DNA of 64,000 bases from Bdellovibrionales bacterium. GTDB lineage: Bacteria > Bdellovibrionota > Bdellovibrionia > Bdellovibrionales > UBA1609. Location of the stretch: contig JAIBAM010000004.1 of the NCBI GenBank assembly GCA_019695175.1, forward strand, positions 1-64,000. The letters are read 5' to 3'. Shown here in pieces: positions 2,781 through 61,410 of this stretch. The position numbers and the translations under genes were made by a program. Position 1 is the stretch's first letter. Every line of letters starts with the position of its first letter. Under the pieces are notes generated by a model. The model was not told the origin of the DNA. It saw nothing but the letters and a program-made list of their open reading frames with translations, and did no database searches.

Positions 2781-4154
2781 TCACCTCCAGACGTCTAAAA
2801 CTTTAGCGAGTGAGTCTGTAGAATGAGTCGCAGATTTTGACACACGATCCTCTTTGGGATTGATGGCAAAAGAGTTGGGAACTCTTTTAAGAAGGCAAAT
2901 GTCATTTAAGCCATCTCCCGCAAAACGAATATTTTCAGGGATTGATCTTTGAAATTTAAGGAGATGAGCTAATAAATTCATCTTACAGTAGTCATGAATT
3001 TTGCAAAGGTTTGATTGCATCATGGGGGAAATTTCCAATTCACCGGTAAAAAGTCCATGCTTAAAATCTAAAAGATGAGCAATGGAAAAGTCTGCGAAGA
3101 TCCGTTTTTTGATAATCTCCGCTGCGACAAAATAGCTATCGGTTATAATCCCTACAACGTAACCCCTTTTTTTTAATTCTATAACAACATTTTGAGCCTC
3201 TTCTGCTAAAGGGACAATGTGGGCAATTTTTTCGAAATCGGATTTGGTAATGCCGGTTAAAATTTTAGCAATCCTTTTTGTACGATCTGTTGAATTCATC
3301 TCCTGATTATCCAAGAGTTTTTTTAACTGATCACTTCGATTCGCAAAACGCGCGAGTCGTTCAATATAACGACCTTCAATTAAGGTTCCATCCATATCAA
3401 AAAGAGCTAATTTTTTGTTGGGTTGAATGCGATTTAGGATGACCTCCATTTGTAGGAACTGGGTCCTTTGAATTTCAAAAGAGTTTTCTAGGTGCACACT
3501 ATCGAGTTTCTTATAACGAGAAGCGCGTTCTAAAATAACCCTCACAATTTGAGTGGACATGTGACTGAGTTGATGTAAACTCTGTTGGTTGTGTTCTACA
3601 AAACCAATATCGACTTCTTGGATACGACCGCCCAACTGCCAAATATCAATCAGCAAGCCAATATCGACGCCGTAATCAGGTTCAAAGTAAATATTTTTTA
3701 AAAGTTCTTTTTTGGCGGCAATAATACCTCCCAAAGGTTGTTCTATTTTTGCAATTTCTGGAAAAAATGCTTTAAGCATTGGTCTTGCAGTCAATGCAGT
3801 TACTCTACCCGCAGTTCTATGAAACCTACCTTTTACAAAATCACTTTTGTTTTCTAAAATGGGTTGGATCATAAGCTCAATAATATTATTAGAAAAATTG
3901 TAGATATCACCATCCAGATAAAGAATGACATCATTCTGTGCGCGCCATAGGCCATCACGCATGGAGGTCCCTTTACCTAGCATGCTGCTGAGAAAAACCT
4001 TAGCATTATTTTGTTGAGCTTTTTCAACAGTTTTGTCAGTAGAACCATCATCGATAACAATAACTTCATTCACAAGATTTGAAGCTAAACAGAATTGAAC
4101 AATGTCACCAATCCTCTTTTCTTCGTTCAGTGTAGGAATTATTACTGTCGTCAT
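2781..4154 (-). CDS. Fusion: glucosyl-3-phosphoglycerate synthase-like GT (1-220) plus HAD phosphatase (245-457)
   Basis: Residues 1-220 form a GT-A glycosyltransferase: DDGSTDKT at 35-42, metal-binding DGD at 81-83, then GRVTALTARP, QPLGG at 139-143, YGVDIGLLID at 161-170 and HMSTQ near 200. Those later motifs are typical of glucosyl-3-phosphoglycerate synthase (GT81) rather than generic GT2. Residues 245-457 form a SerB-like HAD phosphatase with intact catalytic residues: FDMDGT at 252-257, T338, and GDGLND at 413-418. One polypeptide could therefore make glucosyl-3-phosphoglycerate from 3-phosphoglycerate and NDP-glucose and dephosphorylate it to glucosylglycerate, a compatible solute. Known GpgP phosphatases belong to other superfamilies. 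The ATG overlaps the LysR stop in ATGA. The alternative is a lipid- or sugar-phosphate transferase; the substrate is inferred. Confidence 0.75.
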   Translation of the reverse strand: MTTVIIPTLNEEKRIGDIVQFCLASNLVNEVIVIDDGSTDKTVEKAQQNNAKVFLSSMLGKGTSMRDGLWRAQNDVILYLDGDIYNFSNNIIELMIQPILENKSDFVKGRFHRTAGRVTALTARPMLKAFFPEIAKIEQPLGGIIAAKKELLKNIYFEPDYGVDIGLLIDIWQLGGRIQEVDIGFVEHNQQSLHQLSHMSTQIVRVILERASRYKKLDSVHLENSFEIQRTQFLQMEVILNRIQPNKKLALFDMDGTLIEGRYIERLARFANRSDQLKKLLDNQEMNSTDRTKRIAKILTGITKSDFEKIAHIVPLAEEAQNVVIELKKRGYVVGIITDSYFVAAEIIKKRIFADFSIAHLLDFKHGLFTGELEISPMMQSNLCKIHDYCKMNLLAHLLKFQRSIPENIRFAGDGLNDICLLKRVPNSFAINPKEDRVSKSATHSTDSLAKVLDVWR

Positions 4155-5668: not shown

Positions 5669-7042
5669 TCAGTTATTTAGATGGTGCAAGTAATCTAAAG
5701 ACTTCATCATCGGGGCTAATGCGGTACCGCCTTCTTGCTTTCTTGATTCTGCAGCGACGGCAAAACTGAGTGAATTCCACCACAAGAGATCAATTTGTGG
5801 AGCTAGTTTTTTTAGTTGATCCTGGGGGATTTGTTCAATCGAACAATTCACGCTGTCCGCAAACTCTACCAGAGAAGCAGTGAGGGAATAGGCATCTCGA
5901 AAGTTCAGTCCCCGCAAAGTGAGATGGTTTGCCACTTCGGTGGCTAGAAGATGGCCTCCTTTAAGTAGGTCATCGGCTTTATCCGAATGGACCGCAAGTT
6001 CATTTATAAAAGTTGGGATTAAATCGAGGCAAGATTTGAGCTCACTGAAAGACCTTAGATAAACACTTTTTAGTTCATGAAGATCACTGTCATAACTTGT
6101 GGGTAAGGCCTTCATTAGCATGAAACCATTTGTTTGAGCAGCTAGAATGTGAGCCGATTTGGCGCGAACTAATTCAGGAACATCTGGATTTCTTTTGTTG
6201 GGCATTATGGAACTTCCAGTGGACCAGTTTTTAGGAAGTGCCACTAATCCAACGGGAGTGGAGGCCCAAAAAATTATATCCTCAGCCAAACGACTTAAAT
6301 GAATGGCAATTCCAGAGAAAGCATTTAGGGTGTTCAGAATAAAATCTCGGTCCCCCACAGAATCATATGAATTAAATGGAGGAGCGGTAAATTCTAAACG
6401 CTGCGACAAATCACTGAGGTTGATGGGTAAAGTGGTCCCAGCAAGTGCCGCGGATCCTAGAGGCATATTAGACATTGTTTGTTTAGCAGCATGAATTAAA
6501 TTTTCTTTATCGCGTAAAAAGGACCACCCAAAGGAAGCTAAAATGTGCCCAAAACGAATGGGTTGAGCATGTTGAAGGTGGGTGGATCCAGGGACAATAA
6601 TGGTCGCGGTGTCTTTTGCTTTTACGGTGAGGATATTGATAAGATGAGTGAGTGAACTATGAACTTCATAGATACTATCACGAATAAAAAGTCGTAGTGT
6701 TGTAGCAATTAGGTCATTGCGTGAACGACCTAAGTGCATTTTTTTTCCTAGCTCACCGAGTTTTTCTGTGACAAATCTTTCCAGGTTCATATGGATATCT
6801 TCGTCTTCAATACGCCATTGAAATTTATTTTGTTCAATGAGCTGAAGCGCTTCTTCTAAACACAAGTTAATTTGTTTAGCTTCGCTTTCTGAGAGAATAT
6901 CAATTTGGGTTAATGATTGAACCCACTCTTTTTGCACCTTGATTTCTTGACGGTAGAGCCATCGATCGGCGTTAATTCCATTTGTGAAATCAAATAAAGC
7001 CTTTTTTTCTCCGGGATTTTTAGCTGTTTTTAAAACGCTCAC
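5669..7042 (-). CDS. argH: Argininosuccinate lyase
   Basis: ArgH catalyses the last step of arginine synthesis, splitting argininosuccinate into arginine and fumarate in the cytoplasm. The 457 residues match the usual length of the fumarase/aspartase superfamily. The three conserved regions are visible: GRSRND at 105-110, STHLQHAQPIRFGH at 153-166 (catalytic His155), and the signature GSSIMPNKRNP at 276-286 with the catalytic serine. It starts 3 bases after the argG stop, so argG-argH form one leftward transcript. The start ATG lies directly behind argG and translation is probably coupled. Confidence 0.96.
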   Translation of the reverse strand: MSVLKTAKNPGEKKALFDFTNGINADRWLYRQEIKVQKEWVQSLTQIDILSESEAKQINLCLEEALQLIEQNKFQWRIEDEDIHMNLERFVTEKLGELGKKMHLGRSRNDLIATTLRLFIRDSIYEVHSSLTHLINILTVKAKDTATIIVPGSTHLQHAQPIRFGHILASFGWSFLRDKENLIHAAKQTMSNMPLGSAALAGTTLPINLSDLSQRLEFTAPPFNSYDSVGDRDFILNTLNAFSGIAIHLSRLAEDIIFWASTPVGLVALPKNWSTGSSIMPNKRNPDVPELVRAKSAHILAAQTNGFMLMKALPTSYDSDLHELKSVYLRSFSELKSCLDLIPTFINELAVHSDKADDLLKGGHLLATEVANHLTLRGLNFRDAYSLTASLVEFADSVNCSIEQIPQDQLKKLAPQIDLLWWNSLSFAVAAESRKQEGGTALAPMMKSLDYLHHLNN

Positions 7043-7045
7043 AGG

Positions 7046-8272
7046 TTAGAACTCCATGGGTTTATGGTTGAGACGATCTCTTAAACCAGCCTGACGTTGT
7101 TTAAGAGCTATAATTTTGCAATAACCCTCGGCCAAGTGGTGAATTCCACCTTGATCGGCTTCAAAAGTAACAGAATCCATATCATAAAGCGAAAAAGGTG
7201 ATTTTCGTGAGACAAAACGCATTTGCCCTTTTTCTAATTTAAAAGTCACAGATCCGGTTAATGTTTTTGAAGCTTTCTCAAAAAAGGCTTCAAGGCATTG
7301 ACGGAGATCTGTGTGCCAGAATCCATCATAAACACATTCACCATATTGTTGACCTAAAGTTCGTGCTGTGGAAAGCAGGGTGCGATCCCAGCAAAGATGT
7401 TTTAGGGCTCGAACAGCTGCATGAAGCAGGGTTCCACCTGGAGTTTCGTAGATGCCACGACTTTTGATTCCGTTGGCCCTCTCTTCCACGAGATCTTGCA
7501 CTCCAATGCCGGCTTCCCCTGCTATCTGATTTAGATGACTTAAAAGGGTGGCAGAAGATAAATTTTTATTATTTATTGAAGTGGGAAAGCCATTAGTAAA
7601 GCCGATTTCAACTGTCATACTGTCGGCACTGATTTCAGACAGTGGTTTAACCCAATGATAGATTTGTTTAGGATCAAAATCCTGTCCTGGGTCTTCTAAA
7701 ATTCCTCCTTCACAAGAGCGATGAAAGAGGTTTACATCTTCACTAAACACTTTTTCTTTTGCTGGCAAATCAAAGCCTTTTTCTTTTAGGTAAGCCAAAA
7801 GATCGCTTCGGCCTTTAAAATTCCAAATTCGCCAAGGGGCAATGATTTCCAAATCAGGAACAAGATAAGCCCAAGATCTTTCAAAACGCAATTGGTCGTT
7901 TCCCTTTCCAGTACAACCATGGGAAAGAGCTGTAATTCCAAGTTGTTGGGCGTGATAGGCCATTCGTTCTGCTATTAAGGGTCTTCCTAGGGATGTTCCA
8001 AGGAGGTAATCATCTTGATAAGTGGCTCCAGCCCGGACGGCGGCAAATGCAAAACGTTTGGCAAAATCTTCTTTTAAATCTTCGAATATAAAATGAACTG
8101 CACCCAACTGGTGAGCCCACTTTTTTAGAGCCTCTCCGTTGGGTGAATTGCCCAAGTCAGAACAGTAAGCGGTGACCTCGGCATTATAGGTCTCTTTCAA
8201 CCAAGGAATGAGGGCCGAGGTATCAAGTCCGCCTGAGAATGCCAGTAGAATTTTATTCTTTTGTTGTGCCAT
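7046..8272 (-). CDS. argG: Argininosuccinate synthase
   Basis: ArgG joins citrulline and aspartate using ATP to form argininosuccinate. The protein has the normal type I length (408 residues). The N-terminal ATP pyrophosphatase loop AFSGGLDTS is at about residues 11-19, and the family signature SHGCTGKGNDQLRFE is at about 117-131. AAAGGA lies upstream of the ATG. It is the first gene of the argGH transcript and diverges from argC; the 336-base region between them holds repeated operator-like sites. Confidence 0.96.
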   Translation of the reverse strand: MAQQKNKILLAFSGGLDTSALIPWLKETYNAEVTAYCSDLGNSPNGEALKKWAHQLGAVHFIFEDLKEDFAKRFAFAAVRAGATYQDDYLLGTSLGRPLIAERMAYHAQQLGITALSHGCTGKGNDQLRFERSWAYLVPDLEIIAPWRIWNFKGRSDLLAYLKEKGFDLPAKEKVFSEDVNLFHRSCEGGILEDPGQDFDPKQIYHWVKPLSEISADSMTVEIGFTNGFPTSINNKNLSSATLLSHLNQIAGEAGIGVQDLVEERANGIKSRGIYETPGGTLLHAAVRALKHLCWDRTLLSTARTLGQQYGECVYDGFWHTDLRQCLEAFFEKASKTLTGSVTFKLEKGQMRFVSRKSPFSLYDMDSVTFEADQGGIHHLAEGYCKIIALKQRQAGLRDRLNHKPMEF

Positions 8273-8342
8273 AATGTATTTTTTCCTTTAGCCGCAGGGG
8301 CAGAATGGTTTTATCTTTCATTTTCTGATCAAGCGGATCAAT

Positions 8343-8391
8343 CAAACCCGAGTTTGGCAAACTAGAGTTTGGGCCAACAAACTAAAGTTTA
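8343..8391. repeat. Three short palindromes of the form CAAACT-NN-AGTTTG
   Basis: Near-identical inverted repeats lie at 8343-8356 (CAAACCCGAGTTTG), 8358-8371 (CAAACTAGAGTTTG) and 8378-8391 (CAAACTAAAGTTTA). They begin about 120, 100 and 80 bases upstream of the argG start. Their regular placement fits a protein-binding array at the argG promoter. They differ from the TGCAT sites nearer argC. Confidence 0.55.
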
Positions 8392-8450
8392 AGCTTGAAT
8401 GACTCACTCTCTTTGACAGAGCTGGTTTAAGGGCTTTTGATCCGATCTGG

Positions 8451-8528
8451 ATGCATAAAAACGGCACTTTATGCATAAATTGCCCCAAATTCAAGCATAA
8501 ATATACTTTACAATGCATAAATATGCAC
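8451..8528. promoter_or_regulatory. Array of ArgR-box-like sites
   Basis: TGCATAA half-sites occur at 8452, 8472, 8495 (AGCATAAATAT) and 8514. They are spaced about 20-23 bases apart, close to two helical turns, as for paired ARG boxes bound by an ArgR hexamer. The last is a near-perfect palindrome, TGCATAAATATGCA (8514-8527), matching the ARG-box layout TGNATWWWWATNCA. An argR gene closes the argC operon 4 kb downstream. Confidence 0.7.
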
Positions 8529-8535
8529 ATATATA
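8507..8535 (+). promoter_or_regulatory. Predicted argC promoter, spacer occupied by an ARG box
   Basis: A -35 box TTTACA (8507-8512) is followed 17 bases later by TATATA (8530-8535); an alternative -10, TATAAC, is at 8532-8537. The palindrome 8514-8527 fills the spacer, so ArgR bound there would block RNA polymerase. The leader to the argC ATG would be about 65 bases. Confidence 0.6.
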
Positions 8536-8608
8536 ACTCCATCACTGTTGAGACAAACACCGTTCAAGTTAAAAAAGATGATTTTGTAATGGTTTGCAAT
8601 GGAGTGTC

Positions 8609-9691
8609 ATGCAAAAGAAGAAAGTGGGCATTGTTGGCGTTAATGGTTATTCGGGATTGGAATTGGCCAAGCTTTTGTTGCGTCATCCCCTCGTAGACCT
8701 CCAGGTTTGTTTTGTTCGGGATTCCAATTGGAAACTTACAGATGAGCTCCTGACTGCTGCTGCAGGAGAAGTAAAGTTGGTTTCCCCAGATGATTTACTG
8801 TATTGGTCAGATTCTTTGGATGGTTTGTTTTTAGCTACTCCTGTTTCAGTCTCCATGGATGTGGTTAATAGGCTTTTTGATCATTACGGCAAAGAACAAA
8901 AGCGTCGCTTTCCTGTGATTATAGATGTGAGTGGTGCCTTTCGACTACCGCTTCAAGATTTTAATAAATATTATTTAGAGGAGCACACCTGCAGCTCCAT
9001 GATTGATAGAGCTCACTATGGACTGATCCCTTGGTCATTCGCTCTGAAGAAGCAGGATACTTTTCTTATCTCTAATCCGGGATGTTACGCGACCAGTTGT
9101 CTTATGGCTCTGATACCATTGCTTCGGGATCAGGTTGTTTCACCAGATAACATAGTGATTGATTCCAAATCAGGAACTACGGGAGCTGGAAAAAAGGCTA
9201 AAGAAAATTTATTACATGCGGAAGTTGAAGGAGAGTGTTTGCCCTACAGAGTGGGTTTGCACCAGCATCTACCTGAAATCACAAGATATTGCGAAATTTT
9301 TTCTCAGGTCAAACCTAACAATATGCAGTTCACCACTCACTTGTTGCCAACAAGAAGGGGAATTTTATCAAGCCTCTATTTAAAACCATTTCCTGATTTG
9401 CAGGAACTTAACGATGCCGAGATCATGGAGCGAATAGAACAGAGTTACCAAAAGGCCTACGGTCACTACCCTTTGGTTGTTTATGGAGCAGTGGAGGAAA
9501 AACCGTTTTTATTATCATTAAAAAAAGTAGTTTATTCCGCGCGAACTCATATTAGCTACATCGTGAAGGACAAAAATATTTATGTTTTTGCAACTTTAGA
9601 TAACCTTCTTAAGGGGGCTGCCAGTCAGGCTGTTGAGAATTGGAATTCACTGAATGATTGGCCTGTAACAACAGGTTTAATTGAGAACTAA
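8609..9691 (+). CDS. argC: N-acetyl-gamma-glutamyl-phosphate reductase
   Basis: ArgC reduces N-acetylglutamyl phosphate to the semialdehyde with NADPH. The Rossmann start VGIVGVNGYSG (about residues 6-16) and the catalytic cysteine in SNPGCYAT (Cys159) are present, with GLHQHLPEI further on for the second active-site region. The frame is open from a TTG at 8594. I chose ATG 8609 because GGAG at 8601-8604 precedes it and the protein then starts MQKKKVGIVG as in relatives. It is the first gene of the rightward arg operon. The length, about 360 residues, is slightly above the usual 345. Confidence 0.95.
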   Translation: MQKKKVGIVGVNGYSGLELAKLLLRHPLVDLQVCFVRDSNWKLTDELLTAAAGEVKLVSPDDLLYWSDSLDGLFLATPVSVSMDVVNRLFDHYGKEQKRRFPVIIDVSGAFRLPLQDFNKYYLEEHTCSSMIDRAHYGLIPWSFALKKQDTFLISNPGCYATSCLMALIPLLRDQVVSPDNIVIDSKSGTTGAGKKAKENLLHAEVEGECLPYRVGLHQHLPEITRYCEIFSQVKPNNMQFTTHLLPTRRGILSSLYLKPFPDLQELNDAEIMERIEQSYQKAYGHYPLVVYGAVEEKPFLLSLKKVVYSARTHISYIVKDKNIYVFATLDNLLKGAASQAVENWNSLNDWPVTTGLIEN

Positions 9692-9703
9692 GGGAGATTA
9701 AAA

Positions 9704-10903
9704 ATGGTTCCAGGTCCCGGTATTGCCAGAACACAATTGCCCCCAGGATTTACTTGTAGTGGAATTAATTCAGGAGTGAGACGCTATCGTCCGGATTTGG
9801 GGATCATTATTTCAACTGAGCCTGCTGTGGTGGCGGGAGTTTATACCAAAAATGAATGCAAGGCGGTTCCTATTCGTTACTGCCAAAGACTGCTTCCGGC
9901 TCAAAACATAAAAGCCATTGTAACAAACAGTGGACAAGCAAATGCGGCGACGGGGGCTTTAGGTGAAGAAAACAACTTGAAAATGGCGGAAGCTGTAGCC
10001 AAGAAACTCAATTGCCAAACGAGCCAGGTCTTAACGGCCTCGACCGGGGTTATTGGTATTCAATTGGAAATTGATAAAATTGTTGGGGGAGTAGAAGAAC
10101 TAGTGGAGCGTCAGGGTCACACTGCGGAGCCTTTTGCTTTGGCTATTTTAACCACGGATTTGGTGCCTAAAACAGTTTCAACGGAAGTAGAGCTGAGCGG
10201 AGGCAGAGTTCATATCACTGGAATTTGTAAGGGTTCTGGTATGATTCATCCGAATATGGGCACAATGTTGGGATATTTTTTAACAGATGCGGAACTCTCC
10301 ATTCCTGAAGCGGTTCATCTGCTTACGGAAGCAACAGACAATAGCTTTAATATGGTGAGTGTGGATGGTGAGACCTCTACAAATGATTGTGCCTTTTTGA
10401 TGGCCAACGGTGTGAGTGGAGTTCGTCTCGCCAACCTAAGTGATGAAAAAAAGTTTCTAAAAGCTCTTGAAGATGTGGCTCAAGTGTTAGCTAAAAGTAT
10501 TGCTCGTGATGGTGAGGGTGCTACAAAACTTATTGAAGTGCAAATCTTAAACGCTCCCACATTGCCAATGGCACGACAAGCTGCCCGAGGTTTGGTGATG
10601 AGTTCCTTAGTCAAAACAGCCATTCATGGATGTGATCCTAACTGGGGAAGAATTTTGGCTCGTCTTGGCGCTGATCAGGTAAGTAAAGATTGTTTATCAA
10701 AAATGGAGCTTAGGATTCAGGATATTTTAGTTTATCAAAAGGAAACGCCTCTGTCTGTGGACTTGAGCGGACTTCGGAATCAATTGAAATCAGATACGGT
10801 CCTGATTCAAGTTGATTTTAATTCTGGGGATTTTAACGCCACAGCTTGGGGTTGTGATATGTCAAAAAAATATGTGGAAATTAATGCGGAGTACACAACA
10901 TGA
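9704..10903 (+). CDS. argJ: Bifunctional ornithine acetyltransferase / N-acetylglutamate synthase
   Basis: ArgJ transfers the acetyl group from N-acetylornithine to glutamate, recycling acetate and, in bifunctional forms, also making N-acetylglutamate from acetyl-CoA. This 399-residue precursor should cut itself into alpha and beta chains before the nucleophilic threonine in MIHPNMGTMLGY (Thr187). Relatives usually have Ala-Thr at the cut; here it is Gly-Thr. TNSGQANAATG (74-84) and the oxyanion-hole segment TASTGVIG (111-118) are intact. AGGGAG precedes the ATG. The presence of ArgJ argues for the cyclic pathway, so no argE is needed. argJ overlaps argB by ATGA. Confidence 0.95.
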   Translation: MVPGPGIARTQLPPGFTCSGINSGVRRYRPDLGIIISTEPAVVAGVYTKNECKAVPIRYCQRLLPAQNIKAIVTNSGQANAATGALGEENNLKMAEAVAKKLNCQTSQVLTASTGVIGIQLEIDKIVGGVEELVERQGHTAEPFALAILTTDLVPKTVSTEVELSGGRVHITGICKGSGMIHPNMGTMLGYFLTDAELSIPEAVHLLTEATDNSFNMVSVDGETSTNDCAFLMANGVSGVRLANLSDEKKFLKALEDVAQVLAKSIARDGEGATKLIEVQILNAPTLPMARQAARGLVMSSLVKTAIHGCDPNWGRILARLGADQVSKDCLSKMELRIQDILVYQKETPLSVDLSGLRNQLKSDTVLIQVDFNSGDFNATAWGCDMSKKYVEINAEYTT

Positions 10904-11775
10904 AATTCCAACAAAATCCTCATGGAGATGTTCTAAGTGTCATTGATACTCTTCAATACGTTCGGCGGTTCTCTAATCAAAAATTATTGGTTAAGTTGGG
11001 GGGATCTGCATTAAAAGATTTAAATTTAGTTAAAACTATTTGTGATGATTTGGCACTCATTCGTTCTATTGGTATTTCAGTGGTGCTTGTTCATGGGGGA
11101 GGTCCTTCCATCAGTGATGAGTTGAGTTTACGCGGAATTCATTCTGAGTTTATTGATGGTCAACGGGTGACCACACCTGAGATGATGGATATTATCGAGA
11201 TGGTTTTATGTGGAAAAATGAATCGTCGTATTGTTCGCACACTGAATGCTGCAAAAATAAAGGCTGTTGGTCTCTGTGGTACCGATGCAAACATGATTCA
11301 GTGTCGTCGTGAGGATGAGAGACTACAAAACGTGGGTATTGTGGAGCGGATTGATACTGAAATTCTTAATAAATACCTAGGCAATGAGGACCGGCAGGAC
11401 ATCATTCCTGTGGTCGCTCCCATGGGTGTTGATGAAATGGGCCGCGCGTTAAATGTCAACGCTGATTGGGCCGCCAGTCGGATTGCACAGGCGTTAAATA
11501 TTAAAAAAATGATTTATTTAACCGACCAAGATGGAATTTTAGATAAACAAGGTTCACTTATATCTGAATTAGATGCGGCGGGGTTGGAGGAACTTATGGT
11601 CTCTGGTGTGGTGACGGGGGGTATGTTAGCTAAAACAAGGACTATTCTTCATGCCTTGAGAAACAAGGTCGATGATATTCATATTATTAATTCAAAAAGA
11701 CCCCATTCTTTAATTGAAGAGCTTTTTACAAACCGTGGAATAGGAACTGTCTGCCATATTCGCGCTTGCAGTTAG
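10900..11775 (+). CDS. argB: Acetylglutamate kinase
   Basis: ArgB phosphorylates N-acetylglutamate, the second step of arginine synthesis and usually the feedback-controlled one in the cyclic pathway. The amino-acid-kinase fold is evident: LLVKLGGSALKD near residues 28-39, VHGGGPSISDEL near 65-76, NVNADWAASRIA and a C-terminal TGGMLAK segment. The N-terminal extension before the first strand (about 27 residues, MKFQQNPHGDVLSVIDTLQY) resembles the helix that lets arginine-sensitive enzymes form hexamers, so feedback inhibition by arginine is likely. Its ATG overlaps the argJ stop by four bases. Confidence 0.95.
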   Translation: MKFQQNPHGDVLSVIDTLQYVRRFSNQKLLVKLGGSALKDLNLVKTICDDLALIRSIGISVVLVHGGGPSISDELSLRGIHSEFIDGQRVTTPEMMDIIEMVLCGKMNRRIVRTLNAAKIKAVGLCGTDANMIQCRREDERLQNVGIVERIDTEILNKYLGNEDRQDIIPVVAPMGVDEMGRALNVNADWAASRIAQALNIKKMIYLTDQDGILDKQGSLISELDAAGLEELMVSGVVTGGMLAKTRTILHALRNKVDDIHIINSKRPHSLIEELFTNRGIGTVCHIRACS

Positions 11776-11819
11776 AAGATCGTTTAAAAAATATTTGTTT
11801 TATAGGGAGCTTTAAAAGC

Positions 11820-12755
11820 ATGATTAAGTTTAAGACCAATCACATAAAAACGGGAGAAGAACTTCATCCTAACGAAATTTCTGAACTGATTGATTTTGCA
11901 ATTTTCTTAAAAAAAGAACGTCAGCAAAATAAAAATAAACCTTATTTACTCGGAAAACAAATCGCGCTTCTTTTTAATAAACCCTCCTTGAGAACTCGGT
12001 TTAGTTTTAATGTGGCTGTCAATGAGTTAGGAGGGGCCTGCATCGAGAGTGTGGGAACCACAAGAAAGTACGAAGATCCAGAGGATTTGGCGTTAGTTCT
12101 TGGCGGCTACTGCCATGGGATCATGGTGCGAACCCACGAAGATAAAATTATAGAAAGAATGGCTCAGTTTTCAAAGGTCCCGGTGATTAACGGACTTTCG
12201 CAATTACATCATCCTTGCCAAATTCTTGCCGATTTAATGACCCTTAAAGAGGTTTTTGGTAAATTAGATCAGCTCACGGTTAGTTATATTGGCGATGGGA
12301 ACAATATTCTTCACAGCCTCCTATTGATGGCTCCTCAGATGGGTATTCACATAAAATATTCTTGTCCTAAAGGTTATCAACCCAACTCTTTGGTTTTGCA
12401 AAAAGCTAAGGGAGTGGCTAATGCCTCGGGTTTGGGATCTATAATCCCATGTGTTCAACCTCAAGAAGCTGTAACAAACTCCCATGTTGTTTATACGGAC
12501 GTTTGGACGAGTATGGGATTTGAGGAAGAAGATCGTGTTCGTAATGAGGCTTTTGCAGGATACCAGGTGAATGAGGCCCTCATGGAGTTTGCCTTACCTC
12601 ATGCGAAGGTCATGCATTGTCTGCCCATGGTTAAAGGTAAAGAGATTTCAGAAACGCTGCCTTATGGGGATTCATCAGTTATTTTTCATCAGAGTGAAAA
12701 CCGATTGCATGTGCAAAAAGCTCTTCTTATTGGACTATTGGCAAAAATGGAATAA
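11820..12755 (+). CDS. argF: Ornithine carbamoyltransferase
   Basis: This enzyme makes citrulline from ornithine and carbamoyl phosphate. The carbamoyl-phosphate loop reads SLRTR where many relatives have STRTR. HPCQILADL and HCLPMVKGKEI are the ornithine-side signatures. The SLRTR loop also occurs in acetyl- and succinylornithine carbamoyltransferases, but the HCLP motif and the presence of ArgJ favour plain ornithine. The frame opens at TTG 11766 inside argB; I chose ATG 11820, preceded by GGGAG at 11805-11809, giving 311 residues. It follows argB directly and precedes argR in the operon. Confidence 0.9.
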   Translation: MIKFKTNHIKTGEELHPNEISELIDFAIFLKKERQQNKNKPYLLGKQIALLFNKPSLRTRFSFNVAVNELGGACIESVGTTRKYEDPEDLALVLGGYCHGIMVRTHEDKIIERMAQFSKVPVINGLSQLHHPCQILADLMTLKEVFGKLDQLTVSYIGDGNNILHSLLLMAPQMGIHIKYSCPKGYQPNSLVLQKAKGVANASGLGSIIPCVQPQEAVTNSHVVYTDVWTSMGFEEEDRVRNEAFAGYQVNEALMEFALPHAKVMHCLPMVKGKEISETLPYGDSSVIFHQSENRLHVQKALLIGLLAKME

Positions 12756-12764
12756 ATAAAAATT

Positions 12765-13259
12765 ATGGAAAAAAGGGATTCCACGCTCTACTTTCAAGAA
12801 GAAAAGCCAAGTGTCCTTGAGACCTTACGGGGTATTTTGGCAAAAAAAGGGGCGGGAACTCAGGCTGAGCTGCGGGACGAATTGGAGAAAGTAGGTTTGG
12901 AGGTGACTCAATCGACCATTTCACGTGTTTTAAGAAAACTAGGTGCAGTGAAGTCCTTTGCTGAGAATGGGGCGACCTCTTATCAATTGCCTTTGAATCC
13001 TTTAGTCACAACCTCAGTGGATTCTTCCATTACAGACTTGATTTTAGATATTAAATCTAATGAAAATTTGATTGTGATTCATACAAGCCCTGGTTCTGCT
13101 TCTTTGATTGCTCGTCACCTCGATCGTCTTTCTTCAAAAGAAGTATTGGGGACTCTTGCGGGTGATGACACTGTATTTGTAGCCCCGAGCTCGATTCGCA
13201 ACATTACTGGTGTTACAACCTTTTTGAGAAGACTCTTTGGGTTCACAAAAGAAAACTAA
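12765..13259 (+). CDS. argR: Arginine repressor
   Basis: ArgR binds ARG boxes as an arginine-loaded hexamer and represses arginine synthesis. The N-terminal winged helix (about 18-75) contains GTQAELRDELEKVG and VTQSTISRVLRKLG, the ArgR DNA-recognition pattern. The C-terminal oligomerisation and arginine-binding domain shows GTLAGDDTVFVAP near residues 125-137. It is 164 residues, slightly longer than E. coli ArgR (156), mainly at the N-terminus. As last gene of argCJBFR it would be autoregulated through the array upstream of argC. Confidence 0.95.
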   Translation: MEKRDSTLYFQEEKPSVLETLRGILAKKGAGTQAELRDELEKVGLEVTQSTISRVLRKLGAVKSFAENGATSYQLPLNPLVTTSVDSSITDLILDIKSNENLIVIHTSPGSASLIARHLDRLSSKEVLGTLAGDDTVFVAPSSIRNITGVTTFLRRLFGFTKEN

Positions 13260-13322: not shown

Positions 13323-15260
13323 TTATTTCTTAACGCAATTTTTAAGAGTCCTTTCCATGGCAGAAAATAATTCTTTTCGATTTTCTTCTTTAGAGAAGAA
13401 TTCTCCCTCCTCTTCTTTGAGGAGGTAAGTTAAATCTGAAACTCTCCCTTGAAGGAGCTTGTAGAGTTGCTGGCTTTCTTCAAAAGAAATCATAGGATTA
13501 TTTTTCCCGTGGGCTAGAAAAACAGGGAGGTTAATTTTTTGAGAAATGGAGCTTGGAGAGATTTTTTTTAAATAATCCAGATCTTTTTTGGGGTGACCCA
13601 CAAGGGCGTACCAGCGGTCTTGAAATAATTTTTGATAAGGATTGAGGTTTTTTAAAAATGAGACCCAATTTGTAATCCCAGAAAGACTTAACACACAGGC
13701 ATAGTTTTGTGGTTCTTTAATAGCCGACATCAATGCGAGATATCCTCCAAAGCCTTGCCCCATGAGGGCTACTTTTTTGGGATGGGCTAAACCTTGTTTG
13801 ATGAGCCAATCATAGCCATCGCTGATATCATTTTGAATCCCAGACCCCCATTGTCGGTGGGCCAGGTTGGAGAAACGTTTTCCATAACCAGATGATCCAC
13901 GGTAATTGATCTGCAAAACTCCGTAGCCCAACAAGGTCGCCCACTGTACCACAGGATTGTATTCCCAAGAATCCCGACCCCAAAAAGCTGAATCAGGGGA
14001 AAGTTTTGCATCATGTATAAAAATAATAAAGGGCAGTTGTTGTGGGATGAGTTTGCTTGGCAATGTGACATAGCCATAAAGAGTTCTTCCATCACGGCTT
14101 TGCAGTTGAATCGGGCGGGTTGATGATAGTGAAATATTGTTTAGATTAGGGAATTCTTCTCCTACGAAATTAAAATCGTTGTTTGCATATAGATAGTATT
14201 TAGTTGGTTTTTGATCCGATTGGACAGAAAACAAGAATTGATCCTCTGATTTATTAAAGTTCAACAGTTCAATATGGCTCTGCCCCTCTTTTTCGGACAA
14301 TCTATCAAACAAATTTTCCATTTCAGCATCGAAGAAGGCATATTCGTTTTTCCAATCAATGATATTGATTGCCATTATTTTTTTTTGTTTTGCGGAGTAA
14401 ATAATATTTGGTGTTAAATCTCTGTTCGGATGCTGGTAAATGATCCGAGTAACTTTTTTTCGTCGAGGATCGAATTCAACCATTGTGGCTTTGTCATGAT
14501 CGATTTGACTTAAAGCTAAAATGTTTAAGTTGTCAGGAGTGAACATTAAGGGGATAAACTTTTGCTTTAGATCGTAAGTTAAAATATTTTTAAAAGGCGT
14601 GGATTCTCCAGGTCGATATAAAATTTCGGTATGGTTGGCATGAATTTTCTGTGCCAGGCGCAATCGTCCATTATGGTCCAGTATAAACCCTGAAAGACCC
14701 TCTTTATTATCAAGGATCAATTTTGTTTTTAAAGTTTTAATATTGACACGATAAACATTAAATTGTCCTGAGTTTAAATGATGACTCAAATAAGTGATTT
14801 CGTTACTATGGGCTGAAGCTGAGGGGAAAGGGTTTTTGAGCCAATAAGTTTGACCTTGTGCTTCGGGGGTCAGGTTCACAGTTTCTTTGGAGTGTATATT
14901 GAGTCTATATAAATGATAGAGATGATCGCCATTTTTATCTTGAGAAAATACGATGGTTTCACGATCTTGCCACTCATATTCTTGAATATCTTGATCTGAA
15001 AATGAGGTTAGTGGAATTTCTTCTCCTTGGAGAGGGGCTTTAATAAATAAATTATAATGATCATTAAGCGGTTTAAGAAAAGCTAGGTAGTCACCCTCCG
15101 GTGCTAGTCTGGGTTGTTGTAGGGACGGATTGCTGATTAAGGTAAATTTTACTTTAGCGATCACATTATTCTCAGCACTCCTAGCCCAATCTGGAAAGAC
15201 TAGGAAAAAAAGTAAACAAAAGGCATTAAATTTCAAATGTGAATATTGTATTTTGATCAA
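13323..15260 (-). CDS. Secreted S9-family (prolyl oligopeptidase-like) protein lacking the catalytic triad
   Basis: The 645 residues have a signal peptide (about 1-29, hydrophobic FNAFCLLFFLVFPDWARSA), a beta-propeller-like region (about 45-380) and an alpha/beta hydrolase domain (about 385-640), the S9C architecture. In active relatives the nucleophile lies in GxSxGG; here it is GQGFGG, with Gly503 in place of Ser. The acid position in HGxxD is HGKNN (Asn588), and the histidine position in EGHGF is EGEFF (Glu620). All three catalytic residues are thus replaced while the fold around them is well kept. It is probably a binding or scaffolding pseudo-peptidase in the periplasm or outside the cell. 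The gene stands alone, convergent with argR. Confidence 0.85.
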   Translation of the reverse strand: MIKIQYSHLKFNAFCLLFFLVFPDWARSAENNVIAKVKFTLISNPSLQQPRLAPEGDYLAFLKPLNDHYNLFIKAPLQGEEIPLTSFSDQDIQEYEWQDRETIVFSQDKNGDHLYHLYRLNIHSKETVNLTPEAQGQTYWLKNPFPSASAHSNEITYLSHHLNSGQFNVYRVNIKTLKTKLILDNKEGLSGFILDHNGRLRLAQKIHANHTEILYRPGESTPFKNILTYDLKQKFIPLMFTPDNLNILALSQIDHDKATMVEFDPRRKKVTRIIYQHPNRDLTPNIIYSAKQKKIMAINIIDWKNEYAFFDAEMENLFDRLSEKEGQSHIELLNFNKSEDQFLFSVQSDQKPTKYYLYANNDFNFVGEEFPNLNNISLSSTRPIQLQSRDGRTLYGYVTLPSKLIPQQLPFIIFIHDAKLSPDSAFWGRDSWEYNPVVQWATLLGYGVLQINYRGSSGYGKRFSNLAHRQWGSGIQNDISDGYDWLIKQGLAHPKKVALMGQGFGGYLALMSAIKEPQNYACVLSLSGITNWVSFLKNLNPYQKLFQDRWYALVGHPKKDLDYLKKISPSSISQKINLPVFLAHGKNNPMISFEESQQLYKLLQGRVSDLTYLLKEEEGEFFSKEENRKELFSAMERTLKNCVKK

Positions 15261-15530
15261 AAATGGTCCTTCCTCTGAAAAAAGTTCACTTTTCTTTCTA
15301 TTATTATGAAGTAATTTTGATTAAAAAATAAGCTTTATGACTTGATATTATTGATAAGACTAGTTAATTCCGCGGGCCGCAAAGTTGCCTGTTATTTCGG
15401 CACAATGTCTGCTTTAGAAAGTTCCCAGGAGCTCTTGATGGGTACAAAGAGCTGCCATTTGTTCTAATTACAAGTCTTTCCCATTTTTAGGGAATTTAAA
15501 AAACCAAAATAAAACCTTAAGGAGGTTTAA

Positions 15531-16142
15531 ATGAAAGTATCTAGAGTATTGCCGTTATTGGCGTGCGGATTATTGGTTTCTGCATGTTCCAAAAAGAGCT
15601 CGAATAAGAAAGCTCCTCTTGCACCTGTTGTGTCAGAAGCAAAATCGGATGCGCCAGAAGCAAAATCGGATGCGTGTCCCGAAATTAATGGAATTTTTAC
15701 TGATGATAGTAAGTTACCGTCGGTCTCTATTTCGGTAAATAGATCAGAAAAGGAGTTAACGCTGTATGATGGTAGAAATGATAATGAATGGATAATCAGT
15801 TCTACAAGCGAAAATGTTACCGATAAATCAAAAAGAGAAGAGTTCCCACTAGCTACAGATTATATCGCAAAATGTTTTAGCAAAGACAAAATCTTAATTA
15901 CCTATTACGCATTCCCTGGATCTGATTCAACACAAATGGGGAGAAAACATGTGGATGGATTCCTGTCTGATACGGACAACCGTTTTATTTTAGGAAGTGT
16001 TGAATATTCAATGCAAAAAGATAAAATTATTGTAACTACTAAAGATTCTAATGATGAAGCTCATGTTGTGTTCTTATATCCTAAACTTGATTCTAGTCGT
16101 GTTCAGGGTGGTAATATTCTAGAGAGGACGAATGGTTTCTAA
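15531..16142 (+). CDS. Hypothetical lipoprotein
   Basis: This 203-residue protein has a type II signal sequence; the lipobox LVSAC places the lipidated cysteine near residue 19. A short Ser/Lys-rich and then repeated linker follows (EAKSDAP EAKSDAC, from a 21-bp tandem DNA duplication at 15635-15676). The remaining 150 residues are polar with alternating beta-like strands and no recognised domain. The start is firm: AAGGAGG precedes the ATG by 6 bases. A strong terminator follows, so the gene is probably monocistronic. Function unknown. Confidence 0.75.
   Translation: MKVSRVLPLLACGLLVSACSKKSSNKKAPLAPVVSEAKSDAPEAKSDACPEINGIFTDDSKLPSVSISVNRSEKELTLYDGRNDNEWIISSTSENVTDKSKREEFPLATDYIAKCFSKDKILITYYAFPGSDSTQMGRKHVDGFLSDTDNRFILGSVEYSMQKDKIIVTTKDSNDEAHVVFLYPKLDSSRVQGGNILERTNGF
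15635..15676. repeat. 21-bp tandem duplication inside the lipoprotein gene
   Basis: Two adjacent copies of a 21-base unit beginning AGAAGCAAAATCGGATGCG differ only in the last two bases. Being a multiple of three it keeps the frame and duplicates the peptide EAKSDA-P/C. Confidence 0.85.
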
Positions 16143-16377: not shown

Positions 16378-16986
16378 TTAAAGGGACGGTTCGCAGTCAC
16401 TACTTTTAATTCTAACTAAATACTTAGTATTTAGTTTTTGGTCTTGGGTGAGGGTGTAAATTTCTAATACGGGAAATAATGAGACCTTTTTTTCTGCGGC
16501 TTGTTTTTTGAGTTGGGGGTAGACTCTCCAGGGAGCAATGGCTGGGGATCCAGAGTATAAGGCCGTGATAAAACATCCAGATTCAATTTGATGAAAATGG
16601 AATTCCTTAGGCAATGATGCAGAGTTAAGAATCAAGTCTTTAAGCGTCGGAGAGTTTGAGTTCTCTGGAATGAGGCAACCTCCTCGACTTTTGAGTCGAT
16701 CTTCTTCGACCTCCCTAGGGTTGTCCAAATATTCACCGAATGTTTGTGAGCAAGGGACTTTGTGTTCCTGGGCCCACTTTTCCACCTCGGTAATAATGTC
16801 ATTCATCTTATGATAGGGACCTAAATGGTTTTTGTAGATAACAAAATGGGTGGGAATATGGGCCAAATTTATGGTTGGAGAAATCCAGCCGCCAAGATAA
16901 TAAAATAAATAACCAGATAAAAATATAAATCCAAGGAGTACGGGCGCCCCAATGAGACGCCAAAAACTTTTAGTAATTTGAGACAT
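16378..16986 (-). CDS. Membrane-anchored GyrI-like domain protein
   Basis: This protein of about 202 residues has one N-terminal membrane helix (about 12-35) and an outward GyrI-like (SOUL/AraC-effector-type) domain. The domain shows IYKNHLGPYHKM, then a W/helix segment, then GEYLDNPREVEEDRLKSRGG. That last motif is the family's YxDDPxxVxxxxLRxxxG signature. Membrane-anchored GyrI-like proteins exist in bacteria and in the eukaryotic reticulophagy receptor TEX264; the bacterial role is unknown but small-ligand binding is likely. The open frame extends upstream into the thioredoxin-like gene; I chose the ATG at 16986 just before the membrane helix. Last gene of the operon that begins with the response regulator. 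Confidence 0.75.
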   Translation of the reverse strand: MSQITKSFWRLIGAPVLLGFIFLSGYLFYYLGGWISPTINLAHIPTHFVIYKNHLGPYHKMNDIITEVEKWAQEHKVPCSQTFGEYLDNPREVEEDRLKSRGGCLIPENSNSPTLKDLILNSASLPKEFHFHQIESGCFITALYSGSPAIAPWRVYPQLKKQAAEKKVSLFPVLEIYTLTQDQKLNTKYLVRIKSSDCEPSL

Positions 16987-17029
16987 AAAACAACCTTTCA
17001 AAAGTAGGGGATGGGGATTTGTCCAGATT

Positions 17030-17599
17030 CTAAAGTGTAAATTTGATGGAGCAGCCCATGGACGGTCGTTGCTGCAAAGGGTCCAAGGAACCGCCTTGCA
17101 GAAGGGTGTCAATGGCTTCTGCCAATTCCTGTTTACGAACTTTTTTGCTGTCTTTCCAGGAGTCATCTAAACGACCACGGTAAACTAATTTTTGTTTTTG
17201 GTCGTAAAGAAAAAAATCTGGGGTGCAAACGGCTCCAAAAGCATGGGCGGCCTTTTGCGTTGGATCGTGCAGATAGGGAAAAGGAAATTTTTTTTGTTGC
17301 CAGTTTTTTCTTAAACTTTCGTAGGAATCCTCTGGGTAGTCCGTTGGATCATTGCTACAGATGGCTAAAAATTGGACCGGGGATTGAGGTACAGAACTAG
17401 AAATATATTTACGAGCTAAAGTCAAAATACGTTCTTCAATGGCTTGAACATAAGGGCAGTGATTGCAGATAAACATCACTAAAAGAGGCTTTTCCATTAA
17501 GAATGATTTTTTGGAATAGTTTTGTCCATCCATACCTAAGAGACTAAATTCAGGTAGAAGAGTTCCGAAGGCGACCTCTGGAGAATAAGTAAGTGACAT
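17030..17599 (-). CDS. Thioredoxin-like (AhpC/TSA-type) redoxin
   Basis: This 189-residue cytoplasmic redoxin belongs to the group with the active site FICNHCPYV (CxxC near residues 45-48) and the closing signature PSMGCSIKF near the C-terminus. Members carry a thioredoxin fold; they are annotated as peroxiredoxin- or thiol-disulfide-type proteins, with biochemical function poorly defined. No signal peptide is seen. The start lies 21 bases after the birA stop, within the same transcript. The N-terminus MSLTYSPEVAFGTLLPEFSL is typical. Confidence 0.85.
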   Translation of the reverse strand: MSLTYSPEVAFGTLLPEFSLLGMDGQNYSKKSFLMEKPLLVMFICNHCPYVQAIEERILTLARKYISSSVPQSPVQFLAICSNDPTDYPEDSYESLRKNWQQKKFPFPYLHDPTQKAAHAFGAVCTPDFFLYDQKQKLVYRGRLDDSWKDSKKVRKQELAEAIDTLLQGGSLDPLQQRPSMGCSIKFTL

Positions 17600-57945: not shown

Positions 57946-58362
57946 AACAAAACCCTCCGTTGGTAAGTTGTCGTTTCTAGAAGCCCTATCGGATGGATTT
58001 TTGAGAGAATTCAATAAATTCAAAAAAAGAAAATATAAATATAATGGATAAATAAATAGTAAGTGATGAATCGGTTCGAAATGGGGTTTTTACATTGCAC
58101 GACCAAAAAGGCTCGACCATGATCCTGAGAGTCAGGACTGCAAAAAAAGTAAAGAGGATCATTTTGGTGACGTTTTTTGTCAGCACTGGGGTGATTTTTT
58201 CAAAGACAGATGGGATCAAATCCCGCTTATTTGAATAGATTTCATGGCTCTATTGGCATCAGGCTTGCCTTTAGAACTTGAATGAAAAAGGGTTTTGAAC
58301 AGGAAAACTCTTTAAGGAATTAATAGCAGTTTAATTTTCCTTTTTCAAAGAGGATGGGTTTT
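57946..58362. other. Divergent region between the protease and the TPR protein genes
   Basis: About 415 bases with no credible gene; a 77-residue minus frame (57986-58219) is hydrophobic but lacks a ribosome site. An inverted repeat, TCCTGA-GAG-TCAGGA, lies at 58123-58137. Promoters for both neighbours should be here. Confidence 0.45.
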
Positions 58363-61300
58363 GTGAAAGTAAACTTTTTTCTATTAAATGTAATAAAACA
58401 GGTGGCAGAAGTTTGTCTTATTTTTGTCACAGTTTTTGAGCCACTGGTTTCTTGGTCCAATGGTATGGATCAAAAAACCCATTCATTATTAATTGAAAAA
58501 TTAGAAAATGCGCAAAAAGGAATGTCGAATCAGTCTAAAGAGTGGCAGTCTGTAACTCTGAGACTTGCGGACTTATATGCCGATCGTGCGCGGTTGCAGT
58601 TTATTACAAAAAATGAAAAAAAATGTGACTCATGCCCTGATGGTAAAAAAGATCGTGAACTGGCTGTAAGCTCGTACAGAAAAGTTTTACCTTTTTTGCC
58701 CAACGATCAAAAGGGCGAAACCTTATTAAAAATTTCCCACTTATTGCAAGTTTTAGGTAAAGAGGGTCAGGCCTTAGAGACATTAAATGTGATTTTTTCT
58801 GGCAAAGCTTATTCTGAAGAAATTGTTGCAAGAGCTCACAATCAAGCTGGAGATATTTTTTATAAACAAAATAAATTTGAAATAGCTGAAGATCATTATA
58901 AAATTGCAATTCGATCTGAGGATTTGCCCAATCCGGGGATGACTTGGTATCGCCTGTCTTGGTCTGAATTAAATCAGGATAAAGTGAAAGAAGCTACAAC
59001 TCATTTGATCCATATTTTAACCTCCTCAGAATTATTAGAAATTAAAAATCAGGAGGGAACACAATTTGATAAATCATTTCATGAAGATGTTTCTCGGGAC
59101 CTAGTTATATTTATGGCTCGTGGCGCAACGGTGGATTCGGAAGCCACGGCTAAAAAACAAACGAACCAGCTTGTGGAATTGACTCCAGAAGAGTTACGCC
59201 GAGAAAATTTACGTCTTTTTGCCACGGAATTGGAGCGACTGGGAAAAAAGAAAACAGCATTAACTGCTTGGCGTGTTTATCAGGAACTTGTGATAGCCGA
59301 GTTGCCTGTTGATAAAGCGGATGTGGAAAACTTAGAAGTGCAAATTCATTTGGCCCAGTTGCAATGGGATTTGCGACAAAAAAAGGCCAGCCTAGATGAG
59401 TTCTCCCAAGCCATGGAATTATGGCAAAAAAAGGGGTGTAAATTAGAAAATTGTACGGAGTTGGAAAAACGAAGCAAAAACTTTGTTATTACTTGGCATA
59501 AATTAGAAAAAACCAAACCTTCCTCTGAGGTTTTGCAAGCATATAAGATATATTTACTAGCCTTCAGTCAAGATGGAGATATGACAATTCGAGCCGCCTC
59601 GGTCGCAGAGCAACAAAAAAAATTCAAAGATGCCACCGAGCTTTATGCTCAATCTGCCAACCTATTTCACCAGAGGCTCAAAAAAGGAGAAGCTTCGGCC
59701 CAGTCCATGCTGGAGAACTCATTGTTAAAACAAATCGAAAATGCTGAAGTGACACGTGATAAACAAATTCGTCTTTCATCCTATGATCACTATTTAAATC
59801 TCAACGGACAGGGTAAAAAAGTTGTGGAAGTTCGTTATCAGAAAGGACAAGTGTTAAATGAAATGGGCCAAACCCTTGCTGCCTACGAAATTTTTATAGC
59901 TCTGGCTTTAGAGAACAAATCCGATCATCACGCCTTACGATTGAAATCCGCTGACTTGGCTTTGGATGCCTTGGCACTTCTAAAGGATGATGGATCGATT
60001 TATGAAAAATCAAAACAGCTTTCAGTTTTTTATCCTGAGAGGAAAAAAGAATATCAATTGTTGCAAGTGCAAGCTGCGATTCGTTTGGCCGCCCATGTTT
60101 TAAATTTGAAAGAATCTCCTTCGGACTCGGTTTTGCAAAAAGAGTACGATCGACTCAGTCAACTACCGTTACAGAACGTGTCGCTTGAGAATCGCATTCT
60201 TGTTTATCACAATCGTTTGAGTCTTGCAGAAAGAAGAAGAGATTTAGAGGGTGTGGAACAAACGGCAGAACTCATGCTCCAACTTAAAAAAATAAAAGAC
60301 AAAGATCGGGAGTTTGCATTGGAGCGTTTGGTGTGGGTCGCAGAAATGAAATTGGATTTCCTTGCCGCTTTTCAAGGCGCAAGAAAAATGTCCCAACCTC
60401 AACTCAGTCCCGTTTTACGCTTACTGCGTTTGGCAATGCTCAGTGAGTTGGCTGGCAATGACCCATCACCTTATTATCAAAAAGCTTTAACTCAATCACG
60501 GGATCCGAAGCAAAAATTGCAAATCCGTATGGCTCTGGTCAGAGTTTCGAAAAGACCATGGCAAGAGTTTAAAAATCAAGCTCCTGAGTTGAAAAAAAAT
60601 CGGGATTTGATGGGAAGAATTTTATTCGATGTATACGCTCGTAAGGGACAGGATAAGGAAGCCCTTCAGATTATAAATAAATATAATTTAATAAAATCTC
60701 CTTTAAATATAATCTTAGCTCAGAATGATTTTATTTCCAAATGGAAGAAATCGGAACGACGTTTGAGTCAGCACCAATTGCGCGGACAAAGTGAATCTCT
60801 TATGAAGCAAACGATTCAATCCCGTTTACAACTTATTAGTGAACAAGAAAAGTTTGGCAAACAAGCTGTGCAGCAATCCTATTGGTTAGGTCAATTTGTC
60901 GTTATTTCTACTTTGGCAAGGGAGTATGGTCGTTTAAGTGAAGATTTACTGAATCTTCCCATTCCAAGACGATTGAAAGGGGAAATAAAAATGCAATATC
61001 AGAACATGGTGGCGGCCCAAGCTGAAAAATTTAAACAAGACAGTGAAAGAACTAAAGAAAAATTAAATCAATTTTATAGTAATAGCCAATCGACTGATGA
61101 AATTAAAACAGCTTATCAGGATTCTAACGGTAATGTGCGCAAGCTTTTAGGGGAACAAATTAAAACCTTAATGAAGTTATTTGAAAATCAAAGTGAAGCT
61201 CGAGAGTTGAAAAGGGTTTTAGCTGAAGAAAAGAAAACTCCGCGTTCTGAAGAGTTACTTCGAGTTCGTAATAAATTGCGAAGGAGTCCTTTCGATGAAG

Positions 61301-61410
61301 GACTGATTAAGGAATATAAGGAGTTGGCTGAGCAAAGTGGAAATGTAACCTTGGTTGCCTTTCTAGATCAAAGGTTACAACAGTTTAAATTGACGGGGTT
61401 GAGACCATGA
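58363..61410 (+). CDS. Very long periplasmic TPR-type helical-repeat protein
   Basis: About 1015 residues from GTG 58363; an ATG at 58354 lies too close to AAAGAGG. An N-terminal hydrophobic segment (about 5-27) is followed almost entirely by helix pairs with TPR spacing, for example ARAHNQAGDIFYKQNKFEIAEDHYKIAI near residue 165 and YQKGQVLNEMGQTLAAYEIF near 495. The last 100 residues are coiled-coil-like. It overlaps the next gene by four bases and leads to an AgmX/PglI-like protein, so it is likely a structural part of an envelope-spanning gliding- or transport-type complex. Confidence 0.78.
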   Translation: MKVNFFLLNVIKQVAEVCLIFVTVFEPLVSWSNGMDQKTHSLLIEKLENAQKGMSNQSKEWQSVTLRLADLYADRARLQFITKNEKKCDSCPDGKKDRELAVSSYRKVLPFLPNDQKGETLLKISHLLQVLGKEGQALETLNVIFSGKAYSEEIVARAHNQAGDIFYKQNKFEIAEDHYKIAIRSEDLPNPGMTWYRLSWSELNQDKVKEATTHLIHILTSSELLEIKNQEGTQFDKSFHEDVSRDLVIFMARGATVDSEATAKKQTNQLVELTPEELRRENLRLFATELERLGKKKTALTAWRVYQELVIAELPVDKADVENLEVQIHLAQLQWDLRQKKASLDEFSQAMELWQKKGCKLENCTELEKRSKNFVITWHKLEKTKPSSEVLQAYKIYLLAFSQDGDMTIRAASVAEQQKKFKDATELYAQSANLFHQRLKKGEASAQSMLENSLLKQIENAEVTRDKQIRLSSYDHYLNLNGQGKKVVEVRYQKGQVLNEMGQTLAAYEIFIALALENKSDHHALRLKSADLALDALALLKDDGSIYEKSKQLSVFYPERKKEYQLLQVQAAIRLAAHVLNLKESPSDSVLQKEYDRLSQLPLQNVSLENRILVYHNRLSLAERRRDLEGVEQTAELMLQLKKIKDKDREFALERLVWVAEMKLDFLAAFQGARKMSQPQLSPVLRLLRLAMLSELAGNDPSPYYQKALTQSRDPKQKLQIRMALVRVSKRPWQEFKNQAPELKKNRDLMGRILFDVYARKGQDKEALQIINKYNLIKSPLNIILAQNDFISKWKKSERRLSQHQLRGQSESLMKQTIQSRLQLISEQEKFGKQAVQQSYWLGQFVVISTLAREYGRLSEDLLNLPIPRRLKGEIKMQYQNMVAAQAEKFKQDSERTKEKLNQFYSNSQSTDEIKTAYQDSNGNVRKLLGEQIKTLMKLFENQSEARELKRVLAEEKKTPRSEELLRVRNKLRRSPFDEGLIKEYKELAEQSGNVTLVAFLDQRLQQFKLTGLRP

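Follow-up and report, generated by a model that had tools for sequence, protein, structure and literature searches.

A predicted S9-family pseudo-peptidase of a Bdellovibrionales bacterium lacks the catalytic triad and the oxyanion-loop motif

The window analysed here, a 64,000-nucleotide stretch of a Bdellovibrionales contig (JAIBAM010000004.1), carries on its minus strand a gene for a putative S9-family pseudo-peptidase of 645 amino acids (13323..15260), which was delimited by its open reading frame, a Pfam match and alignment with homologues. Translation starts at a TTG codon, and a Shine-Dalgarno-like sequence, GAGGAAGGA (15267..15275, minus strand), can be read 6 nt upstream of it. The 645-codon frame contains no stop codons and no frameshifts, and its codon-position G+C is normal and resembles that of the neighbouring genes. 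Since the genome holds only one copy of the region, a mis-assembled duplicate is unlikely. Sequencing or assembly error as the source of the unusual residues described below can be ruled out, as it would have required several separate in-frame changes and an insert in a single-copy region.

The gene is convergent with argR and lies at the end of an arginine gene cluster (5669-13259), which comprises argH-argG on the minus strand and argC-argJ-argB-argF-argR on the plus strand. On its other side it is divergent from an orphan lipoprotein gene (15531-16142, plus strand) that matches no Pfam profile and nothing in 11 genomes from the family. Among the 11 other family genomes tested, argJ was found in one (G035), and the only other genome of the same genus has no matches to either argJ or the lipoprotein gene. 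None of the neighbours of the pseudo-peptidase gene lies near the active orthologues, and none of them represents a partner or an operon that would point to a function. Further along the window, an ORF at 2781-4154 (minus strand) combines a glucosyl-3-phosphoglycerate-synthase-like glycosyltransferase (residues 3-224) with a SerB-like HAD phosphatase (residues 242-452) and is a possible synthase-phosphatase fusion. The 1018-residue product of the ORF at 58354-61410 (plus strand) has no NCBIfam match at 1e-3. Two minus-strand ORFs, 16378-17166 and 17030-17599, overlap by 137 bases, and the true start of the downstream ORF is probably later.

The window protein begins with a signal-peptide-like N-terminus, MIKIQYSHLKFNAFCLLFFLVFPDWARS (residues 1-28; 15177..15260, minus strand), which contains no lipobox; several homologues do possess one. 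On this basis, the protein is predicted to be exported to the periplasm. The signal is followed by an N-terminal β-propeller domain (residues ~45-375; 14136..15128, minus strand), assigned by alignment, a weak match to PF00930 and the strand-rich character of the region in a low-confidence model. The C-terminal α/β-hydrolase domain (residues 380-645; 13326..14123, minus strand) matches the Pfam profile PF00326 (Peptidase_S9) over residues 432-644 with E=5e-32 and 111 bits, against a cut-off of 22.6. Thus both the profile and the two-domain propeller/hydrolase layout, the latter evident in full-length alignment with S9C homologues, place the protein in family S9. The AlphaFold2 model of the C-terminal domain reached a pLDDT of 78 and a pTM of 0.83, and Foldseek searches with it returned S9 structures as the best fold matches, with TM scores of 0.83 to 5l8s and 0.86 to 7c72. 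The best sequence match in the PDB is likewise 5l8s (1e-29). As the full-length AlphaFold2 model is poor (pLDDT 63, pTM 0.49), the triad was located by sequence together with the model of the C-terminal domain.

Comparing the hydrolase domain with its homologues reveals that every catalytic position has been replaced. Gly503 (GGC; 13752..13754, minus strand) occupies the nucleophile position in GQGFGG, Asn588 (AAT; 13497..13499, minus strand) the acid position in HGKNNPMI and Glu620 (GAA; 13401..13403, minus strand) the histidine position in EEGEFF, as established by homologue alignment and a check of the codons. At these columns, every homologue with coverage reads G-x-S-Y-G-G, D (QGAxDPRV) and H (EGHGF). 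A survey within the family and phylum covered 96 distinct S9-type domains, of which 88 carry Ser/Asp/His and seven are gapped, being truncated or unaligned at one or more triad columns rather than substituted; Gly/Asn/Glu occurs in the window protein only. The oxyanion loop is also affected. The HGGP motif, invariant in close homologues, is changed to HDAK with a seven-residue insert (residues 416-426; 13983..14015, minus strand), such that the window protein reads HDAKLSPDSAFWGRDSW where active homologues read HGGPW.RDxW. Gap placement varies between alignments, yet GGP is lost in all of them, and the loop has a pLDDT below 50 in the C-domain model. In that model, position 503 sits in the turn between a strand ending at 502 and a helix starting at 504, 588 follows the next-to-last strand and 620 lies in the stretch joining the final strand to the final helix; in the predicted fold, the three positions therefore occupy the triad sites of an α/β-hydrolase.

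The protein thus possesses neither the Ser-Asp-His triad nor the HGGP motif of active S9 enzymes. Judged from the alignments, the loss of the catalytic apparatus is complete, comprising nucleophile, acid, base and oxyanion-loop GGP, and the protein probably has no hydrolytic activity at all. A preliminary description of the locus had reported an open 645-residue frame in which the triad was replaced by Gly503, Asn588 and Glu620, and had proposed overlaying these residues on a structure prediction. The frame is borne out, with a TTG start and a Shine-Dalgarno site, the residues stand where they were placed, and the overlay puts them in the triad loops; the loss of the HGGP motif is a fourth feature that the description did not include.

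The search for homologues covered 369 genomes of the phylum. The closest are only 30-39% identical to the window protein over most of their length and all of them are of the active type; against full-length members, identity is 29-36%. Active-type members, in contrast, share ~46-61% identity with each other over most of the phylum. The active member L040 shares 48-55% identity with proteins encoded on large replicons of Bacteroidota, Vibrio and Caballeronia, proteins that are 30-34% identical to the window protein. One scan of genome contigs yielded a single match, a distant active homologue, and three scans of viral contigs yielded one useful homologue locus; among the matches listed, none from plasmids or phages is a closer relative. 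The preliminary description had suggested looking for orthologues that share the substitutions. None with Gly/Asn/Glu was found in 47 genomes of the family, 141 of the order, 144 of the class or 369 of the phylum, so this set offers no example of an orthologue that conserves the inactive form. The other genome of the genus, which is 74% complete, contains no match to the window protein. The phylogenetic tree groups the protein with family f8 and not with its own family f1, on a very long, unstarred branch; the gene may have had either a vertical or a horizontal origin. Since the outgroups and all homologues are of the active type, the loss is derived on the lineage of the window protein itself, whatever its position in the tree.

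The acceleration on this branch differs between the two domains. Under LG+G4, the median end branch is 0.34 changes per column and that of the window protein 2.26; a mixture model gives 0.38 and 3.87, respectively. For the hydrolase domain the branch is ~11 times the median (1.75 vs 0.15) and for the propeller ~4 times (1.44 vs 0.33). Whereas the hydrolase domain evolves at about half the rate of the propeller in active members (0.15 vs 0.33), it is the faster of the two in the window protein (1.75 vs 1.44). The fraction of consensus residues kept follows the same trend, with 0.32 in the active-site motifs (0.85 in active members), 0.43 in the rest of the hydrolase domain (0.76) and 0.37 in the propeller (0.57). 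Motifs of the active site, normally kept better than any other part of the protein, are thus the least conserved here. This uneven acceleration fits the pattern that would be expected if catalytic constraint had been removed. Of 100 family-invariant columns, 64 are kept and 36 are lost. The GxxxGG elbow and the NxRGSxGYG and RDxW motifs are retained.

Such a branch could also be that of a decaying gene, in which the enzyme lost its use in the lineage and the gene has drifted since, remaining open by chance. Its occurrence in a single genome, the long branch, the relaxation being strongest in the hydrolase domain and the 36 lost invariant residues all point in this direction, and the enzyme seems dispensable, given that the window protein has no match at E<=1e-3 in 31 of 59 related genomes. 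The reading frame argues against decay. In the absence of constraint, 225 to 387 amino-acid changes, the lower figure counting residues found in no homologue and the higher one the differences from the consensus, should be accompanied by 16-27 nonsense changes; neither a nonsense change nor a frameshift is observed. Substitutions in the hydrophobic core are conservative: in all-hydrophobic columns, 32 of the 50 new residues of the window protein are themselves hydrophobic, compared to 19 of 69 in polar-only columns. The Shine-Dalgarno site is good, and the codon-position composition is like that of the neighbouring genes. The intact frame, the conservative core and the normal composition indicate that the gene still encoded a folded protein along most of the branch. 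The catalytic motifs are absent and the coding sequence is intact and constrained, as in a pseudoenzyme. The inactive form was found in no second genome, and selection is presumed to have continued after the active site was lost; the changes could instead have built up in a still active enzyme that became inactive recently. Overall, the sequence evidence favours a selected pseudo-peptidase, seen in one genome only, over a decaying gene, which we regard as unlikely.

In another reading, the protein would be a repurposed enzyme whose pocket holds a different set of catalytic residues. Migrated catalytic residues are known from some pseudoenzymes (PMC10211241), and the hydrolase domain offers the new residues Ser525, Ser527 and Glu620. 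However, the protein contains no histidine beyond residue 584, so that the canonical order of nucleophile, acid and histidine could not be rebuilt further downstream. In addition, the nucleophile elbow has kept its glycines but not its nucleophile, and the oxyanion loop is disrupted; we therefore hold this reading to be highly improbable. Less credible still is the idea that the protein regulates an active S9 enzyme of its own cell or forms hetero-oligomers with it, despite such roles being known for pseudoenzymes generally (PMC10211241) and the example of the pseudoproteases CspC and CspA, which operate alongside the active protease CspB (PMC6636752). A search of the genome, which is 97% complete, with an active orthologue returned the window gene and one distant S9A-like enzyme (2e-5), and no active S9C paralogue; a missed gene is conceivable but unlikely. 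The two other S9 proteins of the genome are S9A-like enzymes with intact triads, which are distantly related and have no evident signal peptide. Without an active S9C paralogue, inhibition of such an enzyme or hetero-oligomerisation with it is unlikely. Of the interpretation in the preliminary description, the selected pseudo-peptidase is retained, on the strength of four lost active-site features, an intact frame on a long branch and a preserved fold. The search for an active paralogue that it proposed found none of the S9C type in the genome, and its suggestion that the protein might inhibit a real S9 enzyme is not favoured.

The loss of the active-site residues, the active ancestry, the intact frame and the retained fold are established computationally. 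We consider it probable that the window gene encodes an exported protein derived from an active S9C-type ancestor, which has wholly lost catalysis and which selection maintains for a non-catalytic role in binding or as a scaffold. The ancestor would have been an active, acylaminoacyl-peptidase-like periplasmic peptidase that lost its nucleophile, acid, base and oxyanion-loop GGP. Selection would have retained the product as a pseudo-peptidase of the DPP6/DPP10 type, most likely with the propeller-hydrolase shell and its inter-domain cavity binding a peptide or protein partner that stays uncleaved. Analogy with DPP6/DPP10, MamO and CspC suggests a role in the periplasm as a binding protein or scaffold. 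More tentatively, we propose that a stand-alone S9C enzyme, with no active paralogue left, may have been converted into an exported receptor for ligands or peptides, which would parallel DPP6/DPP10 in bacteria, with a fuller loss of the active site. If functional, the protein would be a case of a bacterial S9 scaffold serving a purpose that is not hydrolysis. Since no active S9C copy remains, the enzyme itself would then have been converted, rather than a spare copy having been neofunctionalised beside it. The automatic label 'S9 family peptidase' would be wrong for it.

Pseudoenzymes in general and inactive animal S9 proteins are already well known. A survey of prokaryotic prolyl oligopeptidases described the triad as highly conserved in all subtypes (PMC4522959), and a limited search of open-access papers found none on a bacterial S9C homologue lacking the triad. 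Among bacterial pseudoproteases, MamO of magnetotactic bacteria is a repurposed protease that binds metal and promotes another protease (PMC4794232), and CspC of C. difficile has a signal-sensing task (PMC6636752). MamO has a trypsin-like and CspC/CspA a subtilisin-like fold, whereas the window protein has the S9 fold; furthermore, MamO and CspC/CspA act beside active paralogues, of which the present genome has none for S9C.

The overall layout of propeller and hydrolase is shared with S9C acylaminoacyl peptidases, namely the Sporosarcina psychrophila enzyme (PDB 5l8s), itself among the best fold matches, and the active orthologues of the phylum (L006-L053). Unlike these, the window protein has its triad residues and HGGP replaced and its hydrolase domain strongly diverged. 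In the animal proteins DPP6 and DPP10, both inactive homologues of S9B dipeptidyl peptidases, the S9 fold is kept for a non-catalytic role (PMC4350108). DPP10 is a membrane-anchored channel subunit that retains His and Asp, whereas the window protein is bacterial and S9C-like and has lost all three residues together with the oxyanion loop. At the nucleophile the two are alike, with serine replaced by glycine in both, in GKGYGG of DPP10 and GQGFGG of the window protein (PMC4350108).
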